Shown: one piece after another, positions 3,491 to 63,860 of the stretch
How the letters are laid out: every line of letters starts with the position of its first letter
How positions within the stretch are numbered: position 1 is the stretch's first letter
Position numbers and translations under genes: made by a program
Notes under the pieces: model-generated
Database searches by the model: none
What the model was told of the DNA's origin: nothing
The model's input: only the letters and a program-made list of their open reading frames with translations
Source of the DNA: Thermococcus celericrescens
GTDB lineage: Archaea > Methanobacteriota_B > Thermococci > Thermococcales > Thermococcaceae
Length of the DNA: 64,000 bases
Assembly: GCF_001484195.1 (NCBI RefSeq)
Contig: NZ_LLYW01000029.1
Location: forward strand, 1-64,000
Reading direction: 5' to 3'

Positions 3491-4929
<1,439 letters not shown>

Positions 4930-60860: not shown

Positions 60861-60912
60861 GGCCGAAAAGCTAAGCACCGCGAGAGAAAAGAGAAAATGA
60901 GAGGTGAGAGAG

Positions 60913-61992
60913 ATGAAGAACCCCTTTGAAAAGATGCCGACGGTGCTTACCGCTGACGAGATTATCGATAAGGCCTTCAGGAGAGCGGAGAAGGCGGCCT
61001 CGGCCCTCACCCCCAAGGGCGGCCCCAGGGCCAAGGCCAGGCAGAGGGAAGAGCTGAGAATCAGAACGATCTCCAACGTCATCCGCGACAACCTGAAGAA
61101 ACTGCTGGACAGGACGCCTGGAGTCTCGGAACTTCCTCCGTTCTACCGGGAGCTGGTTGATACGCTCGTTGACCGCGACCAGTTCCACCGCTCTCTGGCC
61201 CACGTCAACTGGGCAATAAAGACGATACGGAACCTTGAGCAGCGCTACGTCGAGAAGATACGATACTCGCGCGACCCGGATGAGATGTCAAGGCTCCGCA
61301 GGCAGTTCTACGGCCGCGTCGCCGACGTCATCAGGGACATCGCCGACGACCTTGAGTACCTCAACCAGGCCAGAAACGTCCTCAAAGACCTCCCGGTCGT
61401 TGATCTCAACCTTCCGACGGTCGTGATAGCAGGTCATCCCAACGTCGGCAAGAGCACGCTCCTCAGGGTGCTGACGAACGCCAGACCCGAGGTTGCCAGC
61501 TACCCCTTCACGACGAGGGGCATAAACGTCGGCCAGTTCGAGGAGCACTACCTGAAATACCAAGTCATAGACACGCCCGGGCTGCTCGACAGACCTCTGA
61601 GCGAGAGGAACGAGGTGGAGAGACAGGCCATCCTGGCGCTCAAGCACCTCGGAAAGGTCATCGTCTACATCTTCGACCCCAGCGAGTACTGCGGTTATCC
61701 GATAGAGGAGCAGACCCACCTGTTCGAGGAAATCTACGCCGAGTTCGGCGAGTTCCCCTTCATCGTCGTCCTCAACAAGGTGGACATAGCGAACGAGGAG
61801 AAGATAAGGAAGGTAGAGGAGTTCATCCGGGCCAAGGGCCTCGAACCCCTCAGAATCTCGGCGCTCAACGGTGAAGGCCTGGAAGAACTCAAAAAGCGCG
61901 TTATAGAGCTCGTTAAACCTATGGTCGAGGAGCAGGCGAAGAGGATAATGGAGAAGGAGCTGAGAAAATACCGGGAAGAGCTTGAGCTCTGA
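60913..61992 (+). CDS. NOG1-type GTPase (ribosome biogenesis)
   Basis: A 359-residue Obg-family GTPase homologous to eukaryotic Nog1, which acts in large-subunit assembly. The N-terminal ~165 residues are the helical NOG1 domain (FHRSLAHVNWAIKTIRNLEQ). Then the G domain: G1 GHPNVGKSTL at about 174, G2 TTRGINVGQF, G3 DTPGLLD, G4 NKVD near 287, G5 SALNGEG. It lacks the long eukaryotic C-terminal extension, as usual in archaea. ATG 60913 is preferred over the GTG three codons earlier because GAGGTGAG is then at Shine-Dalgarno distance. Confidence 0.93.
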   Translation: MKNPFEKMPTVLTADEIIDKAFRRAEKAASALTPKGGPRAKARQREELRIRTISNVIRDNLKKLLDRTPGVSELPPFYRELVDTLVDRDQFHRSLAHVNWAIKTIRNLEQRYVEKIRYSRDPDEMSRLRRQFYGRVADVIRDIADDLEYLNQARNVLKDLPVVDLNLPTVVIAGHPNVGKSTLLRVLTNARPEVASYPFTTRGINVGQFEEHYLKYQVIDTPGLLDRPLSERNEVERQAILALKHLGKVIVYIFDPSEYCGYPIEEQTHLFEEIYAEFGEFPFIVVLNKVDIANEEKIRKVEEFIRAKGLEPLRISALNGEGLEELKKRVIELVKPMVEEQAKRIMEKELRKYREELEL

Positions 61993-62000
61993 CCCGCGCT

Positions 62001-62010
62001 TCTTTTATAT
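62001..62010 (+). promoter_or_regulatory. TATA box for AlbA/HATPase cassette gene
   Basis: TCTTTTATAT directly in front of the left direct repeat; a transcript starting about 25 bp on would begin inside the repeat. Confidence 0.55.
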
Positions 62011-62079
62011 CGTTAACCACCGTAAAGCCAGAGAAGTTAACGGTAGCGTAAAGTTTTTAGGGTTAACGGTACTTAACGG
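62009..62079 (+). repeat. 71-bp flanking direct repeat, left copy (operator-like)
   Basis: Matches 63373-63443 at about 70 of 71 positions. It contains three tandem units that each start with GTTAAC (62012, 62036, 62062; spacing 24 and 26 bp): GTTAACCACCGTAAAG, GTTAACGGTAGCGTAAAG, GTTAACGGTACTTAACGG. It ends 5 bp before the ATG. Confidence 0.9.
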
Positions 62080-62084
62080 TAATC

Positions 62085-63380
62085 ATGGATGTGAATGAAC
62101 TTCTGACACTCATTCGTCAGGGGGAAAACGAGAGGATAGAGTTCAAGCGCAGGGCAACACCTGAAATCGCCAGAGAGATATGTGCCATGGCCAACGCCGA
62201 CGGTGGCTACATTCTGATAGGTGTAAGCGACGAGGGCAATGTTTTGGGATGTGACATCAAAAAGGCCAGGGAAACGATATCCTCCTCACTTCAGAACGTC
62301 ACCCCTCCTCTGCAGGTAAAAACCCACGCGCTTGAGATTGGTGGCAGAAACGTTCTTGTCGTAGAGGTTCCAAAGTCCCGGAACCTCTGCTCCATCGGTG
62401 GAGTTGCCTACATCAGGATAGGCTCTGGGATAAGGCCCCTTTCAATCCAGGAGATTCTCATGCTCTCCTCCGAGCTGGGGGCGGTTACCTGGGACGAGTT
62501 TCCAGCGGCCGAACTCCCGAAGATGAAGGAAGAATACGTTGAGTGGTTTTTCTCGGCGGTGGAGAAGGCAAGGGGCAGGCGTATCCCGAGGGAAGACTGG
62601 AGCCGCTACCTGAGGAGTGCAAAGGCGATTAAAGGGGACAAGCTGACGAATGCAGGAGCCCTGTTTTTCACCGATGTCGACGAGTTCATACCGCACGCAG
62701 GGGGCAGAATCGTCAAAATGGACGGAGAGAGACCCGTGTGGAGCAGGGAGTTCCAGGGGCCGGTATGGAAGGTTATAGATGGGATGTACGCGGAGCTCCT
62801 TTCCCAGTTCAGCACGATAGAAGTGGTGGTGGGAACAAAGAGAACCAAACTGCCTGAGTATCCCACAAGGGCCGTTAGGGAGGCTATAATAAACGCCTTC
62901 GCCCACAGAAACTACGCAATCCCCGCGGACGTCAGGATTTTCATTCATCCCGATAGGCTCGTAATAAGAAATCCCGGGGGCCTGATGCCGGGAGTGGACC
63001 TCGAAGACCCTGAACACGTGCCGAGGAACCCTAACCTGTGCGGACTTATGTACGATGCAGGCTACATCGAAAAGTACGGCTACGGCCTAAGACTGATCCG
63101 CGAGGAATGCAGGAAACACGGCCTCGTGGAGGTAGAGTTTAAGAGCAGTGCAAACCGCTTTGAAGTGGTCTTCAAGAAGAAAACTGACGAGCTTCTGGAT
63201 GATACTGACAGAAAAATCCTTGAGTTTCTGACCGTTCCGAGGAGGAGCGGGGAGATAGCAGAATACGTTGGCCTCTCAAAGCCTGCCGTGTTAAAGAGGC
63301 TTGAAAAGCTCGAAGCCCTGGGCCTTGCAAGAGCCATAGGCAGAGGTGCCCAGAGAAGGTACGAGATGGTTCATCGTTAA
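62085..63380 (+). CDS. Schlafen/AlbA-2 + HATPase + HTH predicted regulator
   Basis: A 431-residue protein of the COG2865 kind. Residues 1-115 form an AlbA_2 (Schlafen-type) domain with ERIEFKRRA, REICAMANADGGYILIGVSD and GVAYIRIGSG. Residues ~245-355 resemble a GHKL/HATPase_c_4 domain: AVREAIINAFAHRNY (N-box-like), FIHPDRLVIRNPGGL, and YIEKYGYGLRLI. The last ~60 residues are a winged HTH (RRSGEIAEYVGLSKPAVLKRLEKLEALG). It is enclosed by 71-bp direct repeats made of GTTAAC units that look like operators, so self-regulation is likely. The stop codon is inside the right repeat. Biological role unknown; relatives occur as phage-defence or mobile-element regulators. Confidence 0.85.
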   Translation: MDVNELLTLIRQGENERIEFKRRATPEIAREICAMANADGGYILIGVSDEGNVLGCDIKKARETISSSLQNVTPPLQVKTHALEIGGRNVLVVEVPKSRNLCSIGGVAYIRIGSGIRPLSIQEILMLSSELGAVTWDEFPAAELPKMKEEYVEWFFSAVEKARGRRIPREDWSRYLRSAKAIKGDKLTNAGALFFTDVDEFIPHAGGRIVKMDGERPVWSREFQGPVWKVIDGMYAELLSQFSTIEVVVGTKRTKLPEYPTRAVREAIINAFAHRNYAIPADVRIFIHPDRLVIRNPGGLMPGVDLEDPEHVPRNPNLCGLMYDAGYIEKYGYGLRLIREECRKHGLVEVEFKSSANRFEVVFKKKTDELLDDTDRKILEFLTVPRRSGEIAEYVGLSKPAVLKRLEKLEALGLARAIGRGAQRRYEMVHR

Positions 63381-63443
63381 CCACCGTAAAGCCAGAGAAG
63401 TTAACGGTAGCGTAAAGTTTTCAGGGTTAACGGTACTTAACGG
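63373..63443 (+). repeat. 71-bp flanking direct repeat, right copy
   Basis: Same three GTTAAC units as the left copy (one T-to-C difference that I can see). It contains the last codons and TAA stop of the AlbA/HATPase gene and lies between two convergent genes, where an operator has no obvious promoter to control. Confidence 0.9.
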
Positions 63444-63467: not shown

Positions 63468-63860
63468 TCAGGCGCTCTCCTCCTTGATGAGAACGGCGTT
63501 GACGACACCGTCCTGGCCGGGCCTGCTGGTAACTATGGCCCTGCCGGCCTCGGTCTCGACGATGGCGCCCTTGGTGATTATGTTTCTCCTGACGTACTGC
63601 CTGTTGGCCGGGTTCTCAACGACGTTGAGTATCTTAACCTTCTTGCCCTTTCCGCCGTCGAAGACGTTGGCGTAGAGGGCCTCGATGAGCCTAACCTTCC
63701 TGTTTCCGCCGTAGGTCCTGATTATCTTCTTCTTCTCCCTGTCCTCGCCGACCTTGGTGAAAGCGGGCTCCCTTCCGAGCTCCCTCTTCCTCTTCTTCCT
63801 AGCGAGGATAATCCTTCCGCCCGAAGGCTTCTTGAGTGATCTTCCCTGCCAGATAGCCAT
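63468..63860 (-). CDS. rps8e: 30S ribosomal protein S8e
   Basis: A 130-residue basic ribosomal protein matching archaeal S8e throughout: [17 protein letters not shown] at the N-terminus, [37 protein letters not shown], and [23 protein letters not shown] 63860 is chosen because homologs begin MAIWQGRS; the frame extends three codons further upstream. GAGGTGAGA serves as Shine-Dalgarno. The right direct repeat of the AlbA cassette ends 24 bp after its stop. Confidence 0.95.

Follow-up and report, generated by a model that had tools for sequence, protein, structure and literature searches.

A gene for a probable DNA-binding regulator, set between two near-identical arrays of short half-sites in the interval from nog1 to rps8e, is by genome comparison a recurring cassette of Thermococcus rather than a chance duplication, since the unit has been swapped between species or cleanly lost so that one array is left. 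We found it near the end of the window, by which we mean the whole stretch of DNA that was analysed (64,000 nucleotides of Thermococcus celericrescens contig NZ_LLYW01000029.1). The account that we favour, and consider fairly probable, is a Schlafen-AlbA_2/GHKL/winged-helix regulator that controls its own expression, has a duplicated operator, and is gained and lost through recombination.

The gene and its two half-site arrays

The features of the locus, in coordinates of the window, are as follows.

60904-61992, plus strand: nog1 (NOG1 GTPase; Pfam NOG1_N and NOG1), left neighbour
62009-62079, plus strand: left array, putative promoter/operator, kept by orthologues at every site examined
62011-62016 CGTTAA, 62021-62026 CGTAAA, 62037-62042 TTAACG: half-sites 1-3 of the left array
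62047-62052 CGTAAA, 62063-62068 TTAACG, 62073-62078 TTAACG: half-sites 4-6 of the left array
62054-62059, plus strand: T-rich TATA-like element TTTTTA, putative promoter, in the 10-nt spacer of the second, gene-proximal palindrome
62085-63380, plus strand: gene for a 431-aa SLFN_AlbA_2 / GHKL-type HATPase_c_4 / winged-helix protein (Pfam, AlphaFold model, fold matches)
63373-63443, plus strand: right array, with half-site constraint in right copies
63375, 63385, 63401, 63411, 63427 and 63437: starts of the six half-sites of the right array
63468-63857, minus strand: rps8e (ribosomal protein S8e; Pfam Ribosomal_S8e), convergent right neighbour

The initial annotation had described near-perfect 71-bp direct repeats bracketing one gene, and we found that the two 71-nt copies are identical at 70 of 71 positions (the single mismatch is T at 62058 and C at 63422), lie 1364 bp apart, and are the sole two copies in the genome. 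The best further match in the 2.34-Mb genome is 18 nt long (E = 0.27); a repeat family with many genomic copies is thereby ruled out. Six TTWACG half-sites make up each copy as an array; their orientations run reverse, reverse, forward, reverse, forward, forward, and their starts are spaced by 10, 16, 10, 16 and 10 bp. Within this array, two CGTWAA-N10-TTWACG palindromes are flanked by one further half-site at either end, and the whole array is itself nearly a palindrome. The six-box pattern, allowing up to three mismatches, was matched in 10 of 61 genomes of the genus, and the reversed control pattern in 0 of 61. Hence, the array pattern is not due to chance. As first described, the right copy holds the stop codon of the gene (TAA, 63378-63380, within half-site 1) and lies between convergent genes, rps8e being on the minus strand.

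The left copy had been placed between a TATA box and the ATG. It does lie ahead of the ATG, but TTTTATAT, 5' of this copy at about 62001-62008, is present in close relatives only; unlike it, the TTTTTA element within the repeat (62054-62059), 31 nt 5' of the ATG of a gene that has no Shine-Dalgarno sequence, is kept across lineages. Left copies carry it as TTTTTA or TTTTTGA, and in the form TTTTT(A/GA)GG it occurs in 11 of 12 left copies vs 2 of 12 right copies; in the right array of the window it is changed to TTTTCA (63418-63423). Hence, the repeat probably contains the promoter rather than merely lying 3' of one, and if the T-rich element is the promoter, transcription would start close to the ATG.

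All three domains of the protein score above their Pfam cut-offs: SLFN_AlbA_2 (82.1 bits, cut-off 25.3), HATPase_c_4 (69.5 bits, cut-off 26) and a C-terminal winged helix (AsnC-type HTH PF13404, 31.8 bits, cut-off 27), which agrees with the earlier assignment to the COG2865 type. The AlphaFold model (mean pLDDT 86.6, pTM 0.65) matches DIP2311 (3lmm) over its length (profile E = 1.4e-26, fold E = 1.6e-23). Its middle part has the GHKL fold by matches to histidine-kinase CA/PDK ATP-binding domains, and its C-terminus matches SmtB/CzrA, that is, ArsR-type repressors. The protein is a probable DNA-binding regulator, and given its domains, its fold matches and the constraint on the half-sites, the repeat is plausibly its target, as had been suggested.

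In an alignment with SLFN14, residues E14, E19 and D49 of the window protein fall on its E-E-D positions, which we take to be the catalytic positions of Schlafen nucleases. K, A or N takes the place of the third acid in four orthologues (G004, G104, G123, G133). Hence, it is doubtful that the orthologues have nuclease activity in common. A link to defense, also raised by the initial annotation, found no support, since PADLOC returned partial-domain matches only, with no specific full-length match to a known defense protein.

Left and right arrays across genomes

Between nog1 and rps8e, both arrays accompany the gene in every genome that carries it (12 of 12). G101, of another genus, has a broken copy of the gene beside nog1; both arrays are present there and are 87.7% identical to each other, and the rps8e of G101 lies about 44 kb away. 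These occurrences exclude an accidental local duplication, which had been the counter-proposal to the cassette from the outset. Moreover, G101 ties the two-array state to the nog1 end, and the 3' end of nog1 is the landmark of the two-array site.

Within a genome, left and right arrays are 71-100% identical (the two copies of G001 do not differ at all), on average well above the mean identities of 65-72% found when left arrays are compared between lineages. In one lineage, the same insertion of about 10 nt is present in the left and right copies. Hence, the two arrays evolve in concert.

In the right copies of three lineages, we counted 0.037, 0.074 and 0.044 differences per compared site in the half-sites vs 0.109, 0.297 and 0.252 in the spacers; since the pairs are non-independent and the boxes were chosen by the motif seen in the window copy, these counts support, without proving, that the right array is bound. 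In single arrays, too, boxes have fewer changes than spacers, and some single arrays may be used otherwise or may simply be recent. The right arrays thus keep their half-sites and mostly lose the promoter element, which suggests that they have a binding function. We do not favour a barrier function of the right array between its convergent neighbours, because most orthologues with only a left array also face convergent genes.

The left array is present wherever the gene occurs, at all sites examined. Orthologues of 64-76% identity in sister genera (G104, G105, G107, G110, G111, G123, G124, G133) lie at other sites and have the left array only. Hence, the second array is not a necessary end of the unit, and these eight orthologues, if functional, work without a right array, which counts against the account that we favour.

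The presence of 3' arrays seems to be a feature of this protein group more widely. In Thermococcales paralogues (30-34% identity), short repeats with a 10-11 bp period span the stop codons (L019, L020, L021, L023, L162, L203-L207); these repeats are specific to each paralogue and far exceed those of shuffled sequence (0 of 1000 in most cases); no 5' repeats were seen in the five paralogues tested. By analogy, these 3' arrays raise the likelihood that the right array of the window has a role. Paralogue genes at L023, L202, L203, L206, L207 and L209 lie just before a gene (MSEASQALQRIARGTG...) that, from reading its sequence, we take to be flippase-like. A second copy of the 5' end of that gene is found upstream of the paralogues, at times with an array, and the direct repeats formed from these 5' ends are 36-73 bp long and 78-87% identical.

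The right array might also be a passive, functionless relic of a tandem duplication that gene conversion alone keeps similar to the left one, and the evident left-right conversion, with its extreme in G001, fits this, as do the orthologues that live without a right array at other sites. We regard it as possible but doubtful, because right copies retain their half-sites despite loss of the promoter element and drift in the spacers, and because the right array is present in all 12 genomes and in G101.

Occupancy and exchange at the nog1-rps8e site

Close orthologues (62-97% identity) occur in 12 other genomes of the genus, and the region adjacent to rps8e was taken from 58 more genomes for comparison of the site. 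Our census covers the 53 Thermococcus genomes, including that of the window, in which nog1 and rps8e are adjacent or separated by inserted genes only. We found the gene with both arrays in 12 of the 53, one array without the gene in 12 (G004, G006, G012, G014, G015, G017, G022, G028, G031, G035, G052, G060), and neither array nor gene in 28; G016 has a weak partial array. In G004, G012, G022 and G031, both outer flanks of the single array run on as in the window, and a gene remnant was found beside the single array in none of the 12 one-array genomes. Gene-free arrays have decayed to partial forms in G014, G016, G028 and G060 and are nearly gone in G046 and G049. Hence the empty site with a single repeat, which the initial annotation had expected if the unit is inserted or excised, exists in 12 genomes.

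Two of the single arrays have other genes next to them in the interval, namely a PIN-domain gene in G035 (L088) and an AAA_14/DUF4143 ATPase gene in G006 (L066). Hence, the nog1-rps8e interval is an insertion hot spot. Stray single arrays often lie beside ATPase_2/DUF234 or AAA_14/DUF4143 ATPase genes (L066, L150, L151, L167, L169, L170, L162), against a background of 9-37 ATPase_2 matches per complete genome examined.

In a tree of nog1 and rps8e, filled, single-array and empty states are interleaved, with differences between close neighbours: G004, which is nearest to the filled window genome, has one array, and the single-array G031 falls within a filled group. This tree is short, and nog1 and rps8e may themselves recombine; Fitch parsimony gives 8 changes for the gene and 16 for the three states, with no direction.

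In several species pairs, nog1 and the cassette gene disagree in third-position identity. For nog1 vs the cassette gene, we found 62.8 vs 86.1% between G000 and G040, 73.1 vs 94.4% between G013 and G032, 65.0 vs 88.7% between G010 and G009, and 85.4 vs 66.9% between G041 and G027. Hence, on the evidence of these sequences, the cassette is shown to have been exchanged between species at the same chromosomal site, and together with the one-array empty sites this agrees with the earlier proposal that the unit is gained and lost there.

In G041/G027, the exchanged tracts end about 90-100 bp outside both arrays; in G000/G040, an edge lies about 40 bp 5' of the left array. Identity profiles shift near the arrays, yet the recombination edges lie beyond them, in flanking sequence. 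Hence, homologous recombination in the flanking genes is enough for exchange, and ordinary homologous recombination would be enough for excision and horizontal exchange alike.

Copies outside the nog1-rps8e site show further states. G004 has, besides its empty one-array nog1 site, a divergent second copy of the gene (62% identity; L110, G004:C1:160000-178000) with a left array and a partial right array, and insertion-edge comparison placed this copy in a variable region full of repeated sequence. In the same kind of comparison at the G105 locus, gene-free relatives do not align across the junction. A locus common to G104 and G108 has the gene in G104 and the array alone in G108. At L169 (G115; 3842-4063), an array and only the first 50 codons of the gene (frame break) lie beside an ATPase_2 gene, and this remnant is a partly deleted cassette. 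At L164 (G133), the cassette is preceded by a second copy, 79.6% identical, of a 103-bp piece from the region of its downstream neighbour; the two copies lie 150-250 bp ahead of the gene and 46-148 bp beyond it.

The naked array between nog1 and rps8e could instead be an ancestral host element into which the gene was inserted several times, so that genomes with a single array never had the gene. Such genomes are widespread and match the filled ones in number, and the Fitch counts give no direction, both of which suit this proposal. We find it unlikely, since the array decays in genomes that lack the gene, many Thermococcus have none, and array types track cassette lineages, with right-type centres in some single arrays.

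We searched viral contigs and found no copy of the cassette, and plasmids hold remote relatives only; a plasmid or viral origin was rejected, as no close match was found. Quite improbable, too, is the independently mobile minimal element of the initial annotation, in which the encoded protein would recombine the arrays as attachment sites and a circle of gene plus one array would insert into a one-array site: clean one-array empty sites, horizontal movement at one site, the retained half-sites of right arrays and paralogues that also lie between arrays or short direct repeats would fit it, but Pfam and fold searches found no recombinase, transposase or integrase domain in the single cassette gene, the exchange tracts run 40-100 bp past the arrays, the eight orthologues elsewhere lack the right array, viral copies are absent and plasmid relatives remote, and within the genus the unit is nearly always at one site. 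We give equally little credence to the broader idea that the AlbA_2/GHKL/winged-helix genes of Thermococcales form a class of minimal mobile cassettes that lack a classical recombinase, are bounded at the 3' end, or at both, by protein-specific half-site arrays, and owe their insertion and precise loss at these arrays to the protein that they encode.

Proposed account and comparison with known systems

In the autoregulator account, the protein, with its AlbA_2 domain, GHKL ATP-binding domain and C-terminal ArsR/AsnC-like winged helix, most likely binds the TTWACG half-sites, as its domains and the symmetry of the sites suggest. The left array would carry the promoter, its TATA-like element lying between the half-sites of a CGTWAA-N10-TTWACG palindrome, and protein bound there would repress transcription of its own gene. 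The right array, over the stop codon, would probably be a second binding platform, e.g. for looping or cooperative repression. Recombination between the two near-identical arrays is the process that we propose for deleting the gene and leaving one array, an outcome that is seen in the genomes. The cassette would be regained or replaced by gene transfer, to which the sequences testify, with homologous recombination through the flanking genes as the presumed mechanism.

The filled site, the one-array scar, the decayed scar and the site with no trace form a natural series for a one-gene cassette in genetically tractable archaea. Hence, its gain, loss and exchange between species are directly testable. 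The arrays are also candidate binding sites for the widespread and largely unstudied Schlafen AlbA_2/GHKL/winged-helix group, and the paralogues with their different stop-codon arrays would let the recognition code of the protein be worked out.

Our literature search returned no functional study of such an archaeal protein and nothing relevant on this gene type in Thermococcus. COG2865-type regulators such as DIP2311 (3lmm) have the same domain order as the window protein (SLFN_AlbA_2, HATPase_c_4, winged helix), but we found no described member with its own multi-box array at both ends, unlike the window gene. With the Schlafen nucleases SLFN14 and SLFN11, the window protein has the aligned E-E-D in common, and its orthologues do not have it uniformly.

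Integrative elements with direct-repeat attachment sites are known, and archaeal examples are given in PMC4158269. As in integrative elements of this kind, direct repeats flank the unit, the empty site has one repeat, and the chromosomal site is fixed. Unlike them, the window cassette is a single gene without an integrase, its tract edges lie off the repeats, and many orthologues lack one repeat.

GalR and lambda CI are examples of autoregulators that have two separated operators and use DNA looping. The window gene resembles them in that a single regulator gene is flanked by two arrays whose half-sites are ordered and helically spaced, with looping as a candidate mechanism only. It differs in the place of its second array, 1.36 kb away and over the stop codon, and in that the arrays are at the same time the direct repeats through which the gene would be deleted.
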